A stretch of DNA of 64,000 nucleotides from Tubulanus polymorphus (taxonomy: Eukaryota; Nemertea; Palaeonemertea; Tubulaniformes; Tubulanidae), in contig NC_134031.1 of NCBI RefSeq assembly GCF_964204645.1, forward strand, positions 16,055,307 through 16,119,306, written 5' to 3'. The notes under the pieces are model-generated. The model was not told the origin of the DNA, ran no database searches, and worked only from the letters and a program-made list of their open reading frames with translations. Each line of letters begins with the position of its first letter. The first letter of the stretch is position 1. This document shows positions 10,932 to 59,980 of the stretch, one piece after another. Made by a program: the position numbers and the translations under genes.

Positions 10932-13900
10932 CTTCGGGGGAAAATGAAATAAAAAACAACATCAAAATTCGCACGATAAACAAAATTCAAAAAAAAATCT
11001 AACTGAAAACATCGATGGGCTGTAATAGAAATATGAAAATGAATTACGTTTTTTATTTCAAAAGCGCCCTAGACATCGGGCATTCGTTTTGGAAACTAGA
11101 AAAATCAAGCAAATTGAAATGATCGTCTATCACCTAAGGGACGGATGGAGCGATAAGAAATTTACACGATTTCATGGTGGAAAACGGAGACAGTAAAGAC
11201 AGACACAAGATTCCAAGGGAGCAACGATAGATACCATATCATCTTTAAAACTGAGGGAAAAGTGAAGTAATTTCAAACCCAATCCCAATTAACAGTTAGT
11301 TTTCGAATATATATATATATATAAGTAAAGATGATTGCAAAAGGCATATCAATATCACGATCCCTTGGAAATAGATATTTTATTGAACTGCAAGGAAAAC
11401 GGGGAAGCTGAAAGTTGAAATCTCCAGCAATATTAAAAGTTAAGATTGTCATATAGGTTCAATGTGCTATATTTAAAGTGCAGTAGAATGGTTAAGTGCG
11501 TATGATACTTGAAAGCATGCTTCATTTGTGCAAAGGACAATAAATCACGACGACAGAGTTTTAGAATTAAAAAAAAACACATTTTCTCCTTCATTCTTCA
11601 CCGGTGGTTACCTCGTAGAGAGAAATAGTTATCCTGACCGCGTCCGTTTTCAGTTAGGCTTAGCAGAAGAGACAGATATCAGTAGATTTTTAAAGCGGAC
11701 AGTCAACAAGTAACGGGTCTGCATTCACGCCATCGCATGCTAGGTTTGGGCGTTCCAATGTGTCTGAAGCATATTAGCCGGTTTACAAAATGCATTTTCG
11801 CTTCTCTCATACTGAAGATCAAATATATTTTTGCTTCCCTCATGTGCGTACTGTCAAATACTGTCAAAATCAGCTCCAAAATGTTTAGAGTTTTCACGCT
11901 ATTGTACATACATACAGTATGAGAGACATTCGAAAAATTTGAAGGCCAGGTATTCTAAGTAACAAACTTTGATGGGATGAAGGTGTTTACGAAGCAATAT
12001 TAAGATTCCTTGCAGTTTTGATATTCATAAACATAGACTAGGACGCTGACCTACTATACATACATTTACATATAAAAGACTTGCACTGATTCACATGCGA
12101 AAAGTATTCAGTTTAGAACTGAATTCAAACTTCATGAACCAGTACAAGTACGAGTAATCGATCAATGTAGCAAAGGAGGGGAGGGTTAACATTAATTGAT
12201 ATGACCTTTCGTTAGTAAATTGGCCAGAAAATGTTAGTTGCAAAAACTTGCATCATTCACACACGTCGGCGAAAATGTTAAAAAAGATATTTGAAAACAA
12301 ACAGCTGAAAAGGAATTTTGTCATTCACATCTTTATGCGTGGTTCGAGCAATGGAATTTTGTATTACCTTCTTTGGTTTGGCATTGCGCGCCGATCCAGC
12401 CCTCTTTACACTTACAGGCGCCCGTAACGGAATCACAGCCAGAACTGTTCTCGCAGTCGCAAGTGAATGTACAATTAGGGCCGTACCTCGCTCTCGGGCA
12501 ATCTACAGAATATACAACAAGTCTTCATTCATTATTACCTTCAAATCGGCGTGGACACTGGATCAAATATTGCACGAGATCACAGATACGAACCTTTGAG
12601 ACATTTATTACCCATTTTACCAGACGGGCAATCGCAGTCACCTGTGATAGGATTGCAAACGGCCACATTTCCTTCACATTTACATTTCTTCTTGCATTTT
12701 GGACCCCATTTACCATCTTTGCAGACTATAAACGACACGGGAATAGTGAAACGAACGGTAATTTACGTATGAAGTCTACGTTGAAAAATACTAAATTATA
12801 TTTCGATTGATAACACACTCTATCCGTGTTGTGACGATAATGTAGAAAGAGTCCCACAATAATAACGAAAGAAGTTTACAATGTTTCCTGGAGCTAGTAG
12901 TTTATTCAACGTTTCCACTGTATTCTAATAGTCATCTTCAGGAATACTCAGTAATACAGGAATACAGTACTCCTGAAGATGACTATTAGGATATAGTCGA
13001 AACGTCGAATAAACTACTTGCTCCGGTAACATTTCTGTCTGTTTTTCGTTATTATTGTGGGATTCTCTCTACACTAAATTCTACTAATTTTTCAATATTT
13101 TACTGACCTTTTTCACATCTATTCCCACGATATCCATCTTTGCATATGCATTGTCCAGTTTCCGAGTCGCATACCGCGCCGTTTACGCAATCACAGCGTT
13201 TGCTACAAGACTCTCCGTACAATCCAGGCGGACAACCTTAAAGTGTGATTGAAAATGCTTGAATTTAACGATTAACTGAATTTCCATTGCACTGGACGTT
13301 TTGGGAAGTGTTTTCTTTTATAACTTACTGAATTCACACTGTTGCCCGTAAAATCCTGGTTTACAATTACAACAGCCAGAGAATCTACCGCAAGATGCGC
13401 CGTTCTGGCACTGGCAGTTCTGGGTGCAGTTGGGACCGAACAATCCATCTGGGCAGGGTTCTGTACACGCAGGACCCATCCAACCTATACCACAAGTGCA
13501 CATGCCAGTCTCGGGATCGCAAAAACCGCTGTTCTTACATTGGCAAATACCGCTACAATCTGGTCCAAATGTGTTATCGGGGCAAGCTGAAAATATCAAA
13601 ATTGATATAGGGAACAATAGTAAGTAAAATCCATAGGTGAACAACCTAATTTACTTAGCAACTTAGCTTTACCTCGATCGCAATTCTTTCCATAGTATCC
13701 CGACTGGCAGCCACACTGTCCTGTTACATGGTCACACGTGGCATCGTTCTCACACTTGCATTTCTTAGAGCACAAATGGCCGTAACTACCTTTCGGGCAC
13801 TTGTGCTTGCACGTCGGCCCGACGAAGCCCACTGGGCAGACGCACTGACCGGTGACAATATCACACGACGCTCCGTTTTGGCATTTGCATTTCGACAGAC

Positions 13901-16900
13901 AATCCGGTCCGTACATATTCACTTTACAACCTGGAAGAAGTATTCGTATATAGATAACGAATTCGTGAATAGATAATGTGTGATACTTCGGGCAGATCTT
14001 CAGGATCCAGGGCCCGGTTCCACAGTTGTGAGTTAGAGTTAACTACGAGTTAAAAAATCAGTTCATTTTCGATGTTTTAACTCTAGAGTCAGATTTAACT
14101 CAGAACTGTGGAACTGGATCCAGTTTAACAGTCGTGAGTTAGAGTTAACTCTTGGGTTAAAAATCAGTTCATCTTCAATGAACTAACTCCGAGTCAAATC
14201 TTAACTCACAACTGTGGAATTGGGTCCAGTAATTTACCTCTGTTACAATGTTTGCCTCTATGACCAGATCTACAGATGCAGTCGCCACTGATCGGGTCGC
14301 ACATGTAGTTACGCCCGCACTTGCACTCATTACGACAATTCGGACCCCATTTATCTTTAGAGCAACCTGCAATAAACGCACGCAATCAGTATCAATGTCT
14401 TCAGATCTTAAGATAAGAAGAAAATGTTCGCATCTTACGTCTATCGCACGCGAGGCCGGTGAAACCAGCTGGACAATCACACTCTCCGCTGATATGATCA
14501 CACGGTTCGCCTTGCGGGCAGCGACATTTCTGTTTACAATTCAGACCATAATAACCCGGTAAACAAGCTGCAAATCGAAAATAAACAACACATGATAGTC
14601 GTACGCAGGAACTAGAAAACAGCCATCCAACGATTTATACCTTTTTCGCAGAAGTGTCCTCTCCATCCAGCGCGGCAATGACAGTTACCAGTTTCAGAGT
14701 GACACTTCGCTTTATTCTGGCACATACATTTCTCCTGACAATCCTGACCATAGTAACCTTTCTTACATTCTACAATAACACGAATTAAAATGACTAACCT
14801 AACGCACGTGAACATGGGGTTTATGAAAGTTTACAAGTTTTTATGCAACATATCATAAGACAAGAGACAATTAGGACGTACTAGCATTGCATTTTTCTCC
14901 ACCAAAGCCAGGGCGGCAGTGACACTGTCCAGTGAATCGATTGCAGGAGAGACCATTTACACATTCACATCGTTCAGTACAATTAGATCCATATCTCCCT
15001 TCACTGCAAGCTAGAATTTCGAAAATTTCGAAATCATTATGAGTCTTGTTTTCATTCGACGTACCAACCAAAAGGTCGTATAACTTACATAATTCACAAG
15101 CCATTCCTGTCCAACCGGCCGGGCAATTACACTCTCCTGATACAGGATGACAAACACCACTATTTACACAGATACAAGGTCTTGCGCAACCCTGTCCATG
15201 ATAACCACTTGGGCAAGCTATGGAAATAAACCAGATTTAACTTTGGGTTCAAACCGTCAAATTTTAGAAGATGATTGCAGAGATCTAAGCTGCGCGCCTA
15301 CCTTGTTCGCATTGTAATCCCCTCCAACCAGGTTTACATACGCACTGTCCTGTAATCGGGTCGCATGCCGCGCCGTTTTTGCACTTGCATTTATGTCTAC
15401 AATCTCGACCCCATGTACTGGCCGGGCATCGTCGAAGACATCCTGAAAATTTAATCCTTCAACAGTAATTTGGATACGTTCATAGGAGCTTATATCGTCA
15501 TCATGCGAGCGTTTGAATCTTCATCTTGTAATCGATGTTCGAATTGATATAATTTATACCTGTTCCAATCCAACCTGCCGCACAACTACACTGTCCGTCA
15601 ACCGGACTACATCGGGCCCCGTTCTCGCAATTACAAACGTCTTTGCAATCGATGCCGAAAAATCCATCGGGACAAGGCTTTTCACAGTGAGTATCTCGCC
15701 AGCCGGGTCCACATCGACAAGCCCCGCTGATGTGGTCGCAATGGGCCCCATTCGCGCATTTACAAATACGCTTACAACCGGGTCCATATGTGCCGTTGTC
15801 GCATTCTGGTCAAAGCATAACGAGACTTATTATGAAATAATGAATTCAAACATCTTAGGGATGCATCTGGATGAATTGGGTCCCAAACTTACTTTCGTTG
15901 CAGCCAAGTCCGTGCCAGCCAGGAGCGCATATGCAATCTCCAGTTTGCGGGTCGCATTCAGCGCTATTTGAACAGTTACATCGCTGTTTACAATTGCGTC
16001 CGAAAGTTCCAGCCGGACAAGCTAAAATTTTACAAAACTTGTTATAAAATCGCGATATATGAAAATCTCATAATATACTGTCTTCAATCAGCGCTTTCAT
16101 TCTTATATATAGTTTTAGGCATAGGTTTTATTTAAGTTTTAAGTCTCCGTCTAAATTTTTTCAATTTCAAAATTAGTTTCAGGAAAAATTAAAATCTTCG
16201 GTTAAAACACTTTATATTCATTCATATCATTGTTAAATGATTGGAATCATGATGTTTTTCGTTTTCGTTAAACCTCAAAAGAATTAGTCGATGAAAAGAG
16301 ATGGAAATTCTAAAAAAAGATTATGCTAAAAGAAGTTTCTTTTGATTTGAGGTAAAATGATTTCAATTATTGGTTTAATCAACTTTTGCGACGATACAAT
16401 CAAAAGATGAATCATTAAACGAAAGCCATGCAAAGTTTTGCCCAGTTAGGAAGAGAGTATGAAATAAGAGAAAATAGTAAAGCTATTTCTACGAAGTTTT
16501 ATCTAAAAGAGACATTTACGTTTATAACAAATAATCGCATTTATCAAATCACAGTTACATTTAGCATTCACAAAAATACAAGAATCTGACGCCACAACTA
16601 CGTAACATGAAGCGCAGGTTTTTCCTTTTAAAACTTATTGAATGTAAAAAAAATCTTTTTAAGATTTCTTTTCAAATCTTCAAACTTTATTCATACGAGA
16701 TATTTTAGATAAAGATTGAATTAAAACCGAGAAAAACCAAGAAATTAATGAGATAAATTGAATAAAATTAAATCAAAAATATCGTTTTCTTAATCGATTT
16801 CACTGAGTTTGGTGAGATTCGTTAGCAAACTATCAGAATACGCAGTTTAAACACATTTTTAAACGATTTTAGAAATATAATTCCTATCAGATATTGAGCA

Positions 16901-49900: not shown

Positions 49901-52193
49901 ACGCTTTTTCGCACCCTTTTTCGCGTAAACCCCTTCTTATGAATCGTACATATCACGGACACTACTTTCAGGCGCAGATTTTTGGAATACCTTCTCAGGA
50001 AACGCGTATATGATACTACTAAGAGATGATAGAAGATTGGAAATTTTGTCAAACTGATTCCAACCATGGACTCTAAAACGAAGGCTTGTCGAATGACTGC
50101 GCACACAGATACTTTATCTACAGCTGATGCTTACGTCATTAATTCATTGGCGAAATTTGATTAATTAAGATTGGATCGATTGATTAATTGTTCGCCGTAA
50201 ACGCGGATGAATTAAAAGTTTATCTCACGTGTAGTACCCTTGATACACCCCTTGATACACAGCGCATCATCAATGAATAATGACGTAACACTTCACGAAC
50301 GTGCGAAGCTTCTAGTAAAGCATAGTACCAGATATAGCAGAAATTGTCATCTACAATTACAGATATTGTAACAAAAACTGACGGAAAAAAGCTAAAACTA
50401 TAAGGAGTGATATGATGCGAAAAAAATAAGTCAAAATTTTGAATAATTCATTGCTTAAATGGAACGCGAGTAACTAATAAGTGTGTTTCGAAAAATGGGG
50501 TATAACGTAATGGATCCCACGGTCGAGTAGCAGATGAGACAATGATGAATATCTAATTTCTGAACAGGCTACAACATTTAAACATCGGTGACAACATCCT
50601 CTTACCCTTATTCTTCGGAGGGTTTTTCGGCGAGGTTTCCGTCGTTCCTGTTTTTTTTTTATGTGGTAGCGATTAAAAAGTTGAAACAAATGGTGTTGTT
50701 GACTTCGATTCGAAATATGTCGAGATCAGATCTCACGAGTTAGTTGGGGGTAACCGACGGTTTTATTCATTTTTTATTTCTTACTTACGTTGAAAACAGC
50801 CGCTATCGCCGTCTCTTTGTTTCCATGTCTCGCAGCATTTATACTTAGTAACGTACGTCCTGTGGAAGGTTTGTCGGTACGTCGTGTAGTATCGTGTCCT
50901 GAAAATAGCAGTCGAATAAAACATACCGATACTCGAATCCGCGTGAAAATGTAGATCAAATGATGTCCCGCTATTCGAATTTTATACGATGGAATTTATC
51001 AAAATGAAACCACAACGATTTGGTTGTATTTTGTATCGTGATTTTCGATAAGTTGGTGAACTTTGTCGAGAAAATTGTTGTCCAGATTTCTGGTTACATT
51101 ATCTCGGTAGCTTACCGTGATTCCACCTGATGACGGCCGTTAGTCAACAACCGAAACGTTGTGGTTTCAATTTGATAAATTCTATCGTATGAAATTCGAA
51201 ATGTAACAATTTGAAAATTTGACGACAGGACGTATATATTTCGACTGAGCTCTTTGCATTTTTGGGTTTTAGTAATTGGATTGGGAGACCGGAGAAGTAT
51301 TTGGCGTGTGCGACCTTGCCATTTGCGCGAGCGATTCATACATCAAAGAAAAAAGGTTTCGATATCAACATCATCCGGTACAGATACGAGGGAACGGATA
51401 ATATTAAAAAAATACTAGTCCGAACGCACATTAACGAGCTATATCCTGTACAGTTAACAGGAAAGAATGTACATCAATTTAATTGAGAGCTACTCGAAAT
51501 AATGATGATTACTCATAATATTTTCATCATATGGATTTTGCATTCGTACTCCGCACTAGAGCTGAAGCATATATAGAAAAGCTCCATATATAATAGCAGT
51601 TACGGTAACTCCGATTTGTCGGGGTAGGGTTTGCGGTGCCCGAAGAGATAATTTGAACCCAGTTCCACGGTGAGAACGAAAATCAAAAAGTGATTTGCAG
51701 TTACTAAAAAATGAAATCTCGGAAAATACCCAATATATGTATATAAATGTGTATTTATATGGATATTTCAGTATTTTAGTGCTGTGAACGGTTCTGTTTA
51801 ATATCAATTATTCAGTTGTTGACGAAGTAGTAAATTTGATATATGTGATAATTTTCATGTCAACAACACTAATAGATCAAGATAATACGCGCCAGTAGTT
51901 AAATGTTTATAGTTAGAGCTCTGTAAATATGGGAGGTGATTGTTTGTTAAACCCGGGTTCCGCGAGGTTGTCAATTATCGACATTTTTTGGGGATTTAAA
52001 GATTGTCTTTAGGTTATTTCATCGATAACCATGTTTGGTTTATCATATAACTTACCTTCTTTCGTATCCGACACACCAGTTTCTCATATATCCGCAGTTT
52101 GGTTTCCATACTTTGACTAGTTGTGTAAATGCCCGCACACACGGGCGCCGGACTCCCAACATCTCCACCTCCTGATACGGGCAAACATTTGGC
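9520..52193 (-). CDS. MEGF6: MEGF6 homologue: secreted EMI plus about 34 EGF-like modules, 34 coding exons (first exon not found)
   Basis: Read on the minus strand from 52193 to a TGA stop at 9522-9520. The 34 exons total 4885 nt, and after one completing base this is exactly 1627 codons plus stop; every junction is phase-compatible. Order: EMI domain (2 exons), one EGF, three EGF-CA, further EGF/EGF-CA exons, a 51-residue non-EGF linker, about 24 laminin/Draper-type EGFs with the CPxGxYGxxC pattern, and a 45-residue tail. No transmembrane segment is seen. Known of the family: MEGF6 is an extracellular EMI/multi-EGF protein of about 1540 residues in human; the related Draper/MEGF10 proteins have one EMI, fewer EGFs and a membrane anchor. 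The EGF-CA block and lack of a membrane helix argue for MEGF6. Nearly all exons are symmetric phase 1-1, one module per exon. The signal-peptide exon must end in phase 2, upstream (right) of 52193. Detailed exon positions are in the block entries. Confidence 0.9.
12368..12725 (-). CDS. MEGF6: MEGF6 last two EGF exons
   Basis: Exons 12725-12594 and 12502-12368, each one laminin-type EGF in phase 1-1. The first reads [14 protein letters not shown].. with a weak donor (GTTCGT); the second reads [18 protein letters not shown].. and ends QTKE. Cysteine spacing is intact in both. Confidence 0.88.
12908..12941 (-). ncRNA. Minimal hammerhead ribozyme-like motif (copy 2, minus)
   Basis: On the minus strand: CTGAAGA (12941-12935), 19 nt, GAAACGTT (12915-12908). 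The flanks form a perfect 5-bp helix I (TATTC before, GAATA after). Helix II has two or three mismatches compared with copy 1. The two copies face each other within the 233-bp foldback. Confidence 0.55.
12973..13006 (+). ncRNA. Minimal hammerhead ribozyme-like motif (copy 1, plus)
   Basis: CTGAAGA at 12973-12979, then T, then a perfect 6-bp helix II (GACTAT / ATAGTC, loop TAGGAT), then GAAACGTC at 12999-13006. The fixed core residues CUGANGA and GAAA and the cleavage-type triplet GUC are present. Helix III would be only the self-complementary ACGU, as described for dimer-acting minimal hammerheads in Penelope-like elements. Helix I pairs weakly here (TACTC against GAATA, one mismatch). Activity is not demonstrated. 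Confidence 0.6.
13108..16021 (-). CDS. MEGF6: MEGF6 exon cluster encoding 14 EGF-like modules
   Basis: Eleven exons on the minus strand, transcription order: 16021-15893, 15805-15560 (two modules), 15442-15302, 15217-15089, 15010-14882, 14769-14641, 14567-14439, 14366-14238, 13930-13673 (two), 13586-13329 (two), 13236-13108. All are phase 1-1 with GT-AG borders. Each module has the form CPxGxYGxxCxxxCxCxNGxxCDxxTGxCxCxxGWxGxxC. The intron at 15559-15443 cuts inside a module: the preceding exon ends at AAGWIGT and the next supplies GCLRRC, so this pair departs from the one-module-per-exon rule. Double-module exons of 258 nt look like simple intron losses. Introns here are only 60-350 bp, the tightest part of the gene. 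Confidence 0.9.
14002..14229. mobile_element. Tandem pair of palindromic repeats (small MITE-like)
   Basis: In the intron between exons 14238 and 13930. Unit 1 (about 14002-14124) runs from GATCCAGGGCCCGGTTCCAC through CAGTTGTGAGTTAGAGTTAAC to its inverted counterpart GAACTGTGGAACTGGATCC. Unit 2 (about 14125-14229) repeats the same pattern with changed bases. Each is a foldback whose arms read CAGTYGTGAGTTAGAGTTAAC. A decayed relative may lie near 27220-27310. Non-coding. Confidence 0.75.
16022..17370. other. MEGF6 intron, no recognisable feature
   Basis: AT-rich sequence between the exons ending at 17371 and starting at 16021. No exon, RNA gene or clear transposon was recognised. Confidence 0.7.
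17371..19627 (-). CDS. MEGF6: MEGF6 exons encoding three EGF-like modules
   Basis: Minus-strand exons 19627-19502 (126 nt, [19 protein letters not shown]..), 17727-17599 ([20 protein letters not shown]..) and 17499-17371 ([20 protein letters not shown]..). All are phase 1-1 with good borders, and the joins give normal CxxxC spacing. The module of exon 19627-19502 is three residues shorter between its third and fourth cysteines. The intervening introns (about 100 and 1770 bp) hold only AT-rich sequence and a TA repeat. Confidence 0.9.
19628..21568. other. MEGF6 intron, no recognisable feature
   Basis: About 1.9 kb of AT-rich intron. Short open frames (for example about 19678-19998 plus) lack splice context and family resemblance. 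Confidence 0.65.
21569..22485 (-). CDS. MEGF6: MEGF6 exons with phase-0 introns encoding five EGF-like modules
   Basis: Minus-strand exons 22485-22343 (143 nt, phase 1 to 0, begins [14 protein letters not shown]), 22193-21861 (333 nt, phase 0-0, from [13 protein letters not shown] to STGCDAE) and 21755-21569 (187 nt, phase 0 to 1, from [15 protein letters not shown] to GDRCDQ). These are the only phase-0 introns in the EGF array, and both interrupt modules. The 333-nt exon covers about two and a half modules. The last module has an additional cysteine pattern ([11 protein letters not shown]). The array is otherwise regular. Confidence 0.9.
22486..24951. other. MEGF6 intron with a (CAG)n tract
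   Basis: About 2.5 kb intron. A seven-unit GCA/CAG repeat lies at 23278-23299. No exon was recognised. Confidence 0.7.
24952..25104 (-). CDS. MEGF6: MEGF6 non-EGF linker exon with RGD
   Basis: Single 153-nt exon, phase 1-1, GT-AG, between the last EGF-CA exon and the first laminin-type EGF exon. It encodes 51 residues with no cysteine: acidic, Pro/Thr-rich ([32 protein letters not shown]). It separates the two EGF blocks of the protein and carries an RGD tripeptide. Both borders have good splice signals (TTTCAG acceptor, GTAAGTTC donor), so it is almost certainly real despite lacking a domain match. Confidence 0.8.
25202..28076 (-). CDS. MEGF6: MEGF6 EGF / calcium-binding EGF exons (six modules)
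   Basis: Minus-strand exons in order: 28076-27951 ([16 protein letters not shown]..), 27526-27404 ([15 protein letters not shown]..), 27049-26930 ([16 protein letters not shown]..), 25853-25716 ([14 protein letters not shown]..), 25572-25450 ([16 protein letters not shown]..), 25324-25202 ([16 protein letters not shown]..). All are phase 1-1. D-[IV]-[DN]-E-C starts mark calcium-binding EGFs; others lack the calcium ligands (ADGGC.., VNPC..). Exon 25572-25450 has extra cysteines (DCC and CGC), giving an atypical bonding pattern. A long intron (28077-35261) precedes this block. Confidence 0.92.
26716..26784. mobile_element. 69-bp pogo/Tigger-like foldback
   Basis: The 5' arm CAGTCAAAGCTCGTTATAAC at 26716 is inverted at the 3' end (CGTTATA..GAGCTTTGACTG on the opposite strand, ending 26784). 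The terminal sequence resembles pogo/Tigger-family termini. Only the two ends survive, so it is a minimal solo foldback in an MEGF6 intron. Confidence 0.6.
28077..35261. other. Long MEGF6 intron (7.2 kb), possibly regulatory
   Basis: No EGF or other recognisable exon. Open frames of 100-135 codons occur on the plus strand (for example 28534-28872, 30366-30698, 30955-31362), but they match no family I know and lack splice context. Parts are CpG-richer than neighbouring introns. A cluster of ATTGG (NF-Y type) boxes lies at 32365-32443, with more at 33162 and 33196 beside GGATTA and TTATCT motifs. A one-sided hAT-like terminus starts at about 31672. Confidence 0.55.
31672..31760 (+). mobile_element. 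hAT-like terminal fragment
   Basis: CAGGGGCGGATCTAGG at 31672, followed by a G-rich then C-rich stretch (AGGGAGGGGCGCACCCCC), resembles the terminal inverted repeat of hAT-type elements. It is nearly the same as the end of the element at 44864. No partner terminus was found, so this is a fragment; the right boundary is arbitrary. Confidence 0.45.
35262..40934 (-). CDS. MEGF6: MEGF6 N-terminal EGF and three EGF-CA exons
   Basis: Minus-strand exons: 40934-40830 (105 nt, classical [13 protein letters not shown]...[12 protein letters not shown]), 36851-36729 ([17 protein letters not shown]..), 36212-36090 ([16 protein letters not shown]..) and 35384-35262 ([16 protein letters not shown]..). All are phase 1-1. 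The first follows the EMI domain directly, as in vertebrate MEGF6, where a GPRCQY-type EGF precedes the calcium-binding run. Exons at 36.8 and 36.1 kb encode modules identical at 31 of 42 positions, so they look like a local exon duplication; the first has a CC pair where the second has CH. Confidence 0.92.
36852..40829. other. MEGF6 intron, with degenerate hammerhead-like relics
   Basis: About 4 kb. Contains a 53-codon minus-strand frame with a signal-peptide-like start (38403-38242), a degenerate GAAACGTC motif at 38467-38474, and a CTGACGA followed by GGTG at 40328-40339 that resembles a decayed repeat of the same kind. No further MEGF6 exon is needed by phase. Confidence 0.55.
38242..38403 (-). 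CDS. Doubtful small ORF, signal-peptide-like, ends with a dibasic GKR
   Basis: ATG at 38403-38401, stop at 38244-38242, 53 codons. The first 14 residues, [14 protein letters not shown], are hydrophobic; near the end is [11 protein letters not shown], where GKR resembles a prohormone cleavage/amidation site. No homologue is recognised and no poly(A) or promoter signal was found, and it sits inside an MEGF6 intron. It may be chance. Confidence 0.12.
   Translation of the reverse strand: MSCRPVCFLMLIVCDTNNFLPSVKSELYNLTDTIPTAPVAATPTGKRSSRDVY
44864..45192. mobile_element. 329-bp hAT-like foldback element
   Basis: The left end CAGGGGCGGATCCAG (44864-44878) pairs with the right end CTAGATCCACCCGTG (45178-45192), 12 of 15 bases complementary. 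The terminus resembles hAT elements. A clean 8-bp target duplication is not visible (CCATG against CCATTG). No transposase, so non-autonomous. Confidence 0.55.
46430..46550. promoter_or_regulatory. CpG-dense block with a perfect 17-nt palindrome
   Basis: Unusually CpG-rich compared with the flanking intron. It includes GCGTATCGCGGGTTCGG, ACCGCGGCGGTTCGAG and the palindrome CGCGTTATTATAACGCG at 46476-46492. Could be an intronic promoter or enhancer, or a CpG-rich repeat. No transcript evidence. Confidence 0.3.
50789..52193 (-). CDS. MEGF6: MEGF6 EMI-domain exons
   Basis: Minus-strand exons 52193-52056 (138 nt, phase 2 in, 2 out) and 50898-50789 (110 nt, phase 2 in, 1 out). The first encodes [28 protein letters not shown] and NWCVGYERR; the second continues [20 protein letters not shown] then [13 protein letters not shown]. 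The cysteines, the WCVGYERR motif and the YKCC end are diagnostic of the EMI domain and closely follow vertebrate MEGF6. The exon before must end with two bases of a codon and should carry the signal peptide; it was not recognised. The intron between the two EMI exons contains a hammerhead-like motif. Confidence 0.93.
51127..51160 (+). ncRNA. Minimal hammerhead ribozyme-like motif (copy 3, plus)
   Basis: CTGATGA at 51127-51133, 19 nt, GAAACGTT at 51153-51160, in the intron between the two EMI exons. The flanks form a perfect 4-bp helix I (CCAC before, GTGG after). Helix II is shortened (GG / CC, plus GTT / AAC). Same 34-nt spacing as the copies at 12.9-13.0 kb. Lies antisense to MEGF6. Confidence 0.55.
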
Positions 52194-57753: not shown

Positions 57754-59980
57754 ATGGGAAACAGAAGATATTCATTGAATGAAGATAATCAAGATAATGA
57801 ATATGACATTGTTTATAGCGTCACTAAATTATTGGATAAACATGTGAGGCTAATCAAGGCAAGTTGTTGTTGTTGTTGTTGTTGATTTAACGCTTTGGCT
57901 ACTCTACTCGTACGGACCCGTACGGATTACTCTGGAGACTATTCGTACGGGACTAGGATCTGTACGCTAATAACTGTCGCTGATTGGCCGATTAACGCCG
58001 CGCATGCGTACAGAGGTGCACGACTTAGAAAATTCAAGGAAAGTGTGGAGAATAGAGTTAGAGAAAAATAGCGGATAGAGCGAGACTCGAACCCGGGCCA
58101 ATAAATTACTAGCACAGCAGATGACCACAGAGTTTACAAGATGGATCCTCCACTAGACCACCGAGCTCGTTGACAGTCGGTCGAATGTTTTAACTACATA
58201 TAACCTCACCTTACCCTAACCCTATCCCTTCCCGTACACATAATTCCAGAGTTATCCGACGGGTGCGTACGAATAGCCTACGGAATTATTCGTATACGAG
58301 TAGCCACTTCGTTGATTTAATGCCTGCAGCTGCATTGGCCATCACGTAAATCCTCCTATTCCTTTCTTTGATGATTTTAATACGAGTGGTCCACGTATTG
58401 TCTTGGTTGGTCATGAGGGACATCCGTCCATGGCGGATTGCTGTCAAAATCTCTGGCTTCTTGCAAATTCCTACATTCATAAATCACATGCTGCAAAGTC
58501 TCCTCTTGATGACCACAGAGTTTACAAGATGGATCCTCCACTATACCAAACTTGTGAAGGTAGCTCTCCGTCGGAAAGCAGTAGTAAGTTTCAAGGCAAG
58601 TTTCAGGGTTAGAGGGTCCCTGACCCTGCGCCCCGATTCTCTGTATATCATCAATCAGACAGGATATGCAGTGGCAGATCCAGGGCCCTATCCATCTGAT
58701 CTGAGGTGTACTCCTTTCTTCCATCCTGAATTTGTCCCCTGACTTACTAACCAGTAAGTAGATTAAAGGTTATTCAGTACCTGTCAGTGTAGTTTCACAA
58801 TTGGATATTTTCACAAACAAGCCCATCCGATTATAAGATCTTCCCACCAACGATTAGGACACTAACTATTTCAATGTGGACTATTTATGTAATTGTTTAC
58901 TGTATTTCAGTGGTTTTGTTATGGAGTTGGCGTGGTTGGTGTTGTAGTTATTGTAAAGAATGTTTATATGGTTAGTTCTAGTATTATCCAATATACATAA
59001 TCATTGGACGTGAAAAGATCTACAAAAGTATATTTTCCGACATCCTATTTTTTTGCAGTTCAATCAGTTCGCTCATGCCACTGAGATTCCTGCTAGATTC
59101 ATTCAACGTAATGTCCGTCTCCGTGGCACGGTTCATAGTATCTCAGCTGATGGGATTCTTCAAGTTAAGCATATTCCGATAGCTACATTAAAATGGTTGA
59201 AATACTTCAAACCAGGTTCGCTAATTGAAATATAATTACCGTTGTCTCATTTCAGAAATGAATTTGTATTCAAATACATGTATTAAAAACCTTGAAATGC
59301 AGAAATTTTGCAACTAAAGTAATCTCAGGAGACCATTCATCTTCAATTTCAGCGAAAACTGGATTACTGCCAGTTAAGTTGGCGGCTGTGAATCTCACCG
59401 AATCGGCGTATCCTTGGATACACGATACACTAACGTCGAAGCATATCTGGTTTAGACTGATACATCGTCCTGATAGCGCAGAGACTGTACACTGTATTGT
59501 GACTACTGATAAGGTTTGTTAATATGATTAATAATATGAAATCCCACACTAAAGCTAAGCTCAGGTCGACTTAGCCGAGCTGCTTACGATGAAGACTCCG
59601 GAATGTTTTTGTGGCTTAATGATTTATTCGAAGTTTCGACTCAAGCCTTTCAGTTATCTTCACTGAATATACTTGAATTGTTTATTTTGTAGAGTTTTTG
59701 GAGCGCAATCAAAGTTAACGAAAACTTGGTCCGAAATGGTTTGGCAAATGTTCACGACGTATCTGAATACCCGAATGAAAATAAACTTGTTCTAAGATTT
59801 ATAGATAAACTTCACAAAGCAGAATCGTACGCGAAACGCAAAGGAAAAGGCGTCTGGAAGCGGCCATCGTTGAAAGAGAGAGTTTCTGAGAGGATTTCCG
59901 ATTATAAAGACGATATTCGAGATTGGTTTCACGGAAAATTGCAAACCATACGAAGCTTGTTCCCATGGAAGAGTAAATAA
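57754..59980 (+). CDS. C3orf33: C3orf33-like protein (single-pass membrane, SNase-like fold)
   Basis: Five exons: 57754-57858, 58911-58970, 59059-59215, 59353-59513, 59693-59980; 771 nt, 256 residues, stop TAA. The first in-frame ATG after an in-frame stop (57727) is at 57754. Exon 1 encodes MGNRRYSLNEDNQDNEYD and ends LLDKHVRLIK; exon 2 is almost entirely a membrane helix (CYGVGVVGVVVIVKNVY); exon 3 has HATEIPARFIQRNVRLRG and LQVKHIPI, the family signature; exon 4 has GLLPVKLAAVNLTESAYPW; exon 5 is basic and ends WKSK. Intron 1 uses a GC donor (AAG|GCAAGT), the only choice that keeps phase 0. Known: vertebrate C3orf33 (AC3-33) was linked to ERK/AP-1 signalling, but its biochemical role is poorly defined. 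Length is slightly below human (about 290). An ATGGCGTAA mini-uORF lies at 57735-57743. Confidence 0.9.
57863..57884. repeat. (GTT)7 microsatellite
   Basis: Seven GTT units plus G directly after the GC-type donor of C3orf33 intron 1. It may influence donor recognition (inference). Confidence 0.9.
58077..58178 (-). mobile_element. tRNA-derived SINE head with an internal LINE-derived segment
   Basis: On the minus strand: GAGCTCGGTGGTCTAGTGGA provides a pol III box A (TGGTCTAGTGG), and GGCCCGGGTTCGAGTCTCGC a box B (GGTTCGAGTCT) with a good T-arm. Between them the spacing is stretched by a segment that is identical over 35 nt (58121-58155) to part of the LINE fragment at 58509-58543. Lies in C3orf33 intron 1. 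Not a functional tRNA: the anticodon region is replaced. Confidence 0.6.
58286..58724 (-). mobile_element. Non-LTR retrotransposon 3' fragment (zinc-knuckle end of the reverse transcriptase ORF)
   Basis: A minus-strand frame at 58724-58377 encodes SYLHKFGIVEDPSCKLCGHQ followed by EETLQHVIYECRNLQEARDF. The CxxCGxxEETxxHxxxxC pattern is the zinc-binding motif at the C-terminal end of many LINE (I/Jockey/RTE-type) reverse transcriptase proteins. Upstream residues are decayed, and a frame change near 58480 continues the homology-like reading (KEPEIL.. region to 58286). A hAT-like end (CAGTGGCAGATCCAGGG at about 58669) is embedded. A dead fragment inside C3orf33 intron 1. Confidence 0.65.
59630..59663 (-). 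ncRNA. Decayed minimal hammerhead-like motif (copy 4, minus)
   Basis: On the minus strand: GTGAAGA (core C changed to G), 19 nt, GAAACTTC. TATTC lies just before (offset by one base) and GAATA after, the same helix I as copy 2. Same 34-nt spacing as the other copies, and followed by ATAAA as in the 13-kb copies. Located in C3orf33 intron 4. The core and cleavage-site changes suggest it is inactive. Confidence 0.45.

Follow-up and report, generated by a model that had tools for sequence, protein, structure and literature searches.

A foldback in a 64,000-nucleotide window of the Tubulanus polymorphus genome (the window being the whole stretch of DNA analysed) goes back to a Penelope-like element (PLE) that was active in recent times and encodes a reverse transcriptase (RT) and a GIY-YIG domain in one open reading frame (ORF); the copy has decayed, and as such it is ordinary and of a known kind. 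It consists of a tailed pLTR arm joined head to head to a tail-less pLTR arm, both enclosed by one flanking target duplication. The foldback is interpreted here, with a probability of about 0.7, as the product of a single PLE retrotransposition in which both ends of the target break prime the copying of sense mRNA from two adjacent starts, followed by end joining. The interesting part is the genome-wide record of both arm ends in hundreds of copies, which favours two separate reverse-transcription events per insertion, argues against ribozyme-cut templates, and bears on the formation of PLE inverted repeats, on the tail at one end and on the role of the hammerhead.

The first-pass annotation had outlined a 233-bp foldback at this place; the foldback is real, but that frame was too small, and the element extends over about 12798-13072 with a one-sided tail and a target duplication. 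A spacer of 17 nt separates its arms (12838-12948 and 12966-13076), which show 81% complementarity, and the foldback reaches -133.5 kcal/mol (z = -20.7 versus shuffles). Positions within the family are given relative to e0, the first base past the hammerhead cleavage site in the reference L088:2525-3037. The arm and tail of L088 (e-57 to e100) align at 12963-12804 with 77% identity, and this alignment together with the arm complementarity places a tailed arm (pLTR) at 12841-12948 on the minus strand, ending in the one-sided PLE tail at 12798-12840 (minus strand, aligned part 12804-12840). The tail-less arm occupies 12966-13072 on the plus strand, e-42 to e62 of L088 aligning at 12965-13069 with 80% identity, and the junction loop of 17 nt lies between the arms at 12949-12965. 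With only 77% and 80% identity between its arms and the L088 arms, the window copy is old. The 8-bp repeat ACTAAATT is found on the left at 12790-12797 and on the right at 13073-13080 (coordinates counted by eye from the printed sequence) and is taken as the target-site duplication, with a score of 8 that shuffled flanks reach in 1.2 of 95. The surrounding minus-strand gene carries EGF-like repeats, and the copy sits in one of its introns, between two of the exons with laminin-EGF-type repeats seen at 12580-13650. Elsewhere in the window, a second foldback at 50974-51200 has arms (50974-51027 and 51147-51200) that are 91% complementary and contains the hammerhead-like motif CTGATGACGGCCGTTAGTCAACAACCGAAAC at 51127-51157 on the plus strand; it looks like a member of another PLE family with the same mode of insertion. 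A weak similarity to the hammerhead part of the arm (76%, E = 0.33) at 59623-59662 on the minus strand is perhaps a third, decayed copy.

Two opposed motifs of CTGAAGA, 19 nt and GAAAC had been claimed within the foldback and are indeed present, at 12911-12941 on the minus strand and at 12973-13003 on the plus strand. In the minus copy, CTGAAGA-19 nt-GAAACGTT (12908-12941), stem II is broken with four of six pairs, and in the plus copy, CTGAAGA-19 nt-GAAACGTC (12973-13006), all six pairs of the perfect helix II described earlier were found and stem I is mismatched by eye. Following hammerhead rules, cleavage is presumed to fall between 12908 and 12907 and between 13006 and 13007, respectively. 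Both copies have the core CTGANGA and GAAA together with a cleavage triplet ending in H (GTT and GTC), and neither has stems I and II both intact. Folding of the single arms produced a hammerhead in neither case (z = 0.44 and -0.02). Both window copies are degenerate, and the suggestion that they are minimal Penelope-type hammerheads holds for their kind, which is type I without stem III, located in a PLE pLTR, with a fold and a stem II covariation seen in the family, and is not supported for these two copies as working ribozymes. Within the window by itself the motif is only modestly over-represented, with three occurrences versus 0.81 expected, and three were reached by 5 of 100 shuffles. 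Rfam gave nothing at gathering score in the whole window. The covariance-model search that had been proposed found no hammerhead model at E≤10 in 12000-14000, yet young family copies were equally without a match, so this null result is uninformative; the 16 weak matches obtained there at the same threshold were mostly microRNA-precursor models fitting a hairpin. The hammerhead model RF00008 had no match genome-wide, and 14 controls were likewise silent.

The identity of the family was established by searching the genome (268 Mb, 77 contigs). The pattern CTGANGAN{12,24}GAAACGTYGAA gave 1068 + 1045 = 2113 matches versus 0 for the reversed control, so the window motif is not a chance occurrence, and the foldback used as query had at least 110 matches once 40 of its 1227 candidates had been scored. 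In L088 an open frame of 637 aa lies between these same arms, and in L186, a more complete copy, the frame measures 833 aa. Both frames matched RVT_1 (1.3e-07 in L088, 6.3e-10 in L186) and GIY-YIG (1.3e-05 and 1.6e-05), and an RT and a GIY-YIG domain in one ORF of a relative with the same arms is characteristic of PLEs, as are the tail of 30-40 bp at one end and the short target duplications of variable length. The pLTR order is direct (pLTR-ORF-pLTR) in L187, and an inverted arm lies 5' in L088 and L188. On visual inspection, the tail continues in frame into the ORF, with a methionine following closely. On these features the anatomy is that published for endonuclease-bearing PLEs in the available text of two reports (PMC3846280, PMC11167929). 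The protein search gave 72 matches, the 833-aa frame being present in 8 of them; the best 24 had 97-100% identity, and 23 of these 24 lacked an internal stop. Such near-identical and mostly stop-free matches indicate that the family was recently active. The RT of the family had no match among PDB sequences.

At the level of the family, the hammerhead motif belongs to the pLTR, the PLE as a whole encoding RT and GIY-YIG domains. The motif of young copies folds as stem I, core and stem II without stem III, its energy being little below that of shuffled sequences (z = -1.2, 26 of 200 shuffles as good). The same core with another stem II had 753 matches versus 0 for the reversed control, and two of these motifs adjoin more distant PLE ORFs of 63-71% identity. 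The comparison of genomic relatives, which had been proposed as a check, came out in favour of the fold, as stem II pairing is kept by covariation across PLE families. Among 77 variants, comprising all those collected with a 19-nt spacer, 58 double-changed cells were counted versus 20.9 expected (0 of 2000 shuffles), and the three pairs free of the search pattern gave 28 versus 8.3 (0 of 2000). A smaller set of 21 hand-picked variants had 20 double-changed cells versus 7.5 (0 of 500 shuffles), with two of five measures, pairs with double changes and pair types, not above shuffles. In the first family alone the count was 6 versus 1.6, reached by 7 of 2000 shuffles. The covariation supports the hammerhead fold at family level. 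Minimal type I hammerheads in PLEs were reportedly described by Cervera in 2014 and Lunse in 2017.

The ends of the copies were recorded in three overlapping samples, namely 39 loci from the foldback search, 60 fetched motif loci on contig C1 (from 100 listed of the 2113 matches) and 95 tail loci (from 100 listed of 363; one of the other places shares L129 and four lie in a segmental duplication), of which 93 remained after removal of duplicates. Because the tail search accepted exact tails only, it under-represents old copies, and its listed places reach contig C3. The C1 motif clusters L020 and L045 came from another sample, and the array at C1:31400180-31400697 was left out. The duplicated copies L040, L177 and L178 were excluded from the counts of tails and arm ends, L133 and L134, with flanks in common, were both retained, and L129 was excluded from the comparisons of closest arms, duplications and arm lengths.

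In total 96 head-to-head pairs were found, and the only other order, in L109, seemingly represents two elements side by side. Exactly one arm is tailed in 94 of the 96 pairs (32/33, 20/20 and 58/59 by sample, the samples overlapping and the last being selected by the tail). In the two samples unselected for the tail, 52 of 53 pairs are one-tailed, for which the chance under free choice is 6e-15. The two exceptions are L003, with a partial tail on the right arm by eye, and L129, where the right arm continues into the ORF. Tail, arm, loop and arm lie inside one duplication; L048 is one of the copies in which the tail is visible. A duplication enclosing the entire pair was detected at a score of at least 9 in 78 of 95 pairs versus 0.8 in shuffled flanks, and 17 of the 95 had no clear duplication; the duplications measure 10-18 bp in the family (median 13), compared with 8 bp in the window.

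This arrangement also bears on a MITE-like derivative of a DNA transposon that would move as a fixed foldback. Such an origin would suit a short, multi-copy inverted repeat without an internal ORF and with a TA close to either end in the window copy, but a duplication that varies between 10 and 18 bp instead of having a fixed length, the tail at one end, the same arms around RT-bearing copies and the absence of any non-empty loop common to copies, where an inherited interior would be expected, make it the least credible of the explanations considered and a very unlikely one.

The loops and the 5' ends of the arms were informative on how the two arms of a pair came about. Among 41 loops between arms both ending near the start, 2 were empty and the other 39 were all different. 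Loops were no more alike where the arms were more identical: their median likeness was 0.46 at an arm identity of 0.98-1 and 0.47 at 0.80-0.90, versus 0.40 and 0.41 for shuffled loops; loops were slightly more alike than shuffled ones at all arm identities except the lowest, as shared arm-derived filler would produce. Matches of 7 nt or more to the arms of the same copy were found in 19 of 29 loops versus 3.5 in shuffles. The loops look like the result of end joining with templated filler. Of 94 pairs, the tail-less arm extends further 5' in 32 and the tailed arm in 14 if a difference of 8 nt or more is required; for 40 nt or more the counts are 16 and 8. The published alternative is self-priming, by which an RNA or the first cDNA loops back on its 3' end so that one arm templates the other; for the Penelope elements of Adineta vaga, the palindromes seen where arms meet head to head led to the proposal of an antisense RNA in this role (PMC3846280). 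Self-priming would agree with 5' ends no more than 7 nt apart in 48 of 94 pairs and with the haplotypes described below. However, a copied arm can neither exceed its template at the junction nor own a tail that is missing from the template. This refutes simple self-priming or snap-back for the pairs with the longer tail-less arm, and self-priming gives no reason for the fixed end of the tail-less arm or for ends at the start site. Self-priming is accordingly considered improbable as the general mechanism, though the least so of the rivals.

Two separate copying events per insertion raise the question of their templates. A haplotype test was applied to 72 of the 96 pairs and then to 44 young pairs, and 37 of these 44 had the same haplotype in both arms, with a per-site discordance of 3.2% versus 24% for random pairing; an origin of the arms from unrelated RNAs was thereby rejected. 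Discordance was 3.2% at polymorphic versus 1.5% at other sites (P = 0.018), and the partner was the closest arm, ties included, for only 62 of 144 arms; the doubled discordance and the low share of closest partners weaken the case for one RNA per insertion. Pair-private alleles were shared by the two arms in 3 cases and confined to a single arm in 14, too few to separate one RNA from one locus. The data point to one RNA, or to RNAs of one source locus, as the origin of both arms.

The 5' ends of the arms are strongly clustered, with 61 of 153 arms in the tail sample ending in e-45 to e-38 versus 4.1 expected. Among 128 arms of this type from the three samples together, agreement with longer copies was 0.84 at e-41, then 0.59 and 0.48, down to 0.08 at e-44. 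A TATA box, TATATATA, starts at e-72, 31 nt upstream of e-41, and about 31 nt is the usual distance from TATA box to transcription start. Because of this spacing and the pile-up of ends, e-41 is read as the start, and e-43 to e-41, TC/ATTATTCCTGAAG, is the probable transcription start of the PLE RNA as judged from genome sequence. One-armed inserts with their own duplication have the same 5' end (L052, L096, L131 and L133/L134). Beyond e-61 extend 39 of the 153 arms, into the 3'UTR and partly the ORF of an upstream unit, as a template RNA of several units would yield. A further 43, with scatter near the peak set aside, neither end in the start peak nor reach beyond e-61.

At the ribozyme site, the ends show no such accumulation. 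Only 3 of 153 arms end at the cleavage site (e-2 to e4) versus 3.6 expected, 4 end in e-5 to e8 versus 7.7 expected, and 134 of 153 begin upstream of e-5. The 5' ends of long copies were sought at 26 loci, of which 9 gave an end, 6 extend past the reference and 11 were uninformative; none of the nine ends lies at the cleavage site and one, L188, lies at e5. These counts speak against the view that the hammerhead cuts multimeric PLE RNA, that the cut RNA is the template, and that the head-to-head pair is kept for ribozymes acting as dimers. A core kept across PLE families with a covarying stem II, and a family motif that can fold, would be in line with it, but besides the missing excess of ends an insertion at L035 contains an array of uncut motifs and both window copies have decayed, which leaves this view very improbable. 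Cut RNA is not usually copied and most copied templates are uncut, which does not imply that the ribozyme is inactive. Integration of the element accounts best for the head-to-head arrangement, better than a design by which the transcript of either strand would obtain a ribozyme.

Arrays of 69-bp units with one hammerhead per unit were seen at L032, L035, L048, L050, L110, L111 and C1:31400180-31400697, and those of L032, L035 and L048 sit within the loop of a two-armed insertion. They could derive from arrays of the source promoter or from multiplication at the RNA level. The loci L183 and L184 (C3:25082400-25097100) were considered as a tandem PLE array and rejected; they form a segmental tandem duplication with a period of about 3.58 kb, in which each unit seen has one tailed PLE arm and no long PLE frame.

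According to the favoured reading, the PLE protein would make a staggered cut in the target, and each 3' end would serve as primer for copying sense PLE mRNA, one at a distal site at the tail end beside the ORF start and the other at a proximal site about 37 nt upstream. Copying would run toward the 5' end of the mRNA, often halting where transcription begins, some 7 nt on the 5' side of the hammerhead core, and the two cDNA ends would be joined by end joining, often with bits of the arms copied into the loop. The hammerhead would thus lie within the first 40 nt of the mRNA and be uncut in most copied templates. Extension of both target strands from two adjacent starts has a parallel in PAc, a Poseidon-type PLE of Anolis, which, as reported without a strand difference in start site in the available text, does not itself predict the one-tail rule (PMC11167929). 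More tentatively, and with the odds somewhat against it, a single PLE mRNA may serve two reverse transcriptases, a protein dimer priming at both ends, its two subunits starting about 37 nt apart, one at the tail end and one further upstream; if true, a dimer on one mRNA would explain the one tail, the one haplotype and the ends at the cap site. Such an insertion would amount to paired, convergent target-primed reverse transcription without a classical second-strand step and with a hammerhead kept uncut in the 5' end of the template.

Other PLE families of the T. polymorphus genome probably insert likewise. Among the first 100 listed places of each of two motif patterns, 11 and 10 had opposite-strand neighbours within 300 bp, all 21 of them head to head, and at larger distances both neighbour orders were found (e.g. 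C1:15903717 and 15904164). A second family, inspected by eye at the seven loci L211-L217 (L212 and L213 being the same place), also forms foldbacks; its junctions abound in fragments of the arms, some loci carry a comparable tail, and some arms extend beyond the expected start.

The combined result of one tail, independent arm lengths and start-site ends was not found in print in the open-licence literature. The discrimination between origins of PLE inverted repeats has been said to await further experiments (PMC3846280), and the role of PLE hammerheads has been called still a mystery (PMC7761336). The motif described here resembles the minimal type I hammerheads of PLEs in core, in stems I and II and in the lack of stem III, and differs from those in the available descriptions by one unpaired base between core and stem II and by the degenerate state of the window copies (PMC7761336, PMC7229834). 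With metazoan retrozymes it shares the multi-copy, non-coding nature and the type I hammerhead, but those are direct tandem repeats of about 150-450 bp moved as circular RNA, whereas the elements here are inverted and tailed; as the pairs are head to head and the arrays have a 69-bp period, a metazoan retrozyme was rejected, only the 69-bp arrays bearing a resemblance (PMC7229834). Adineta vaga Penelope, as far as described in the available text, has head-to-head inverted pLTRs with an optional 31-bp tail at one of them, target duplications of 8-10 bp, a TATA box and an initiator-like sequence in the pLTR and an ORF with RT and GIY-YIG domains, and the present family is like it in the inverted pLTRs, the one-sided tail, the duplications, the TATA box and the ORF (PMC3846280). 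In contrast to the few copies of A. vaga, whose junction palindromes were read as antisense self-priming, hundreds of young copies are available here, with arms that differ in length, loops that are each unique and 5' ends that lie at the start site (PMC3846280). PAc cuts and extends both target strands, and has two adjacent reverse-transcription starts near the ORF start with the tail between them in an AC-rich stem-loop (PMC11167929). Its hammerhead, located around the ORF start, is dispensable for insertion in vitro, with which the uncut templates found here agree (PMC11167929). The tail between two start sites near the ORF start and the extension of both target strands would thus be common to PAc and the T. 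polymorphus family. In the in vitro work on PAc, as available, the start site was the same on both strands without a strand difference (PMC11167929), whereas in the genomic record of T. polymorphus nearly every two-armed insertion has one site per side.
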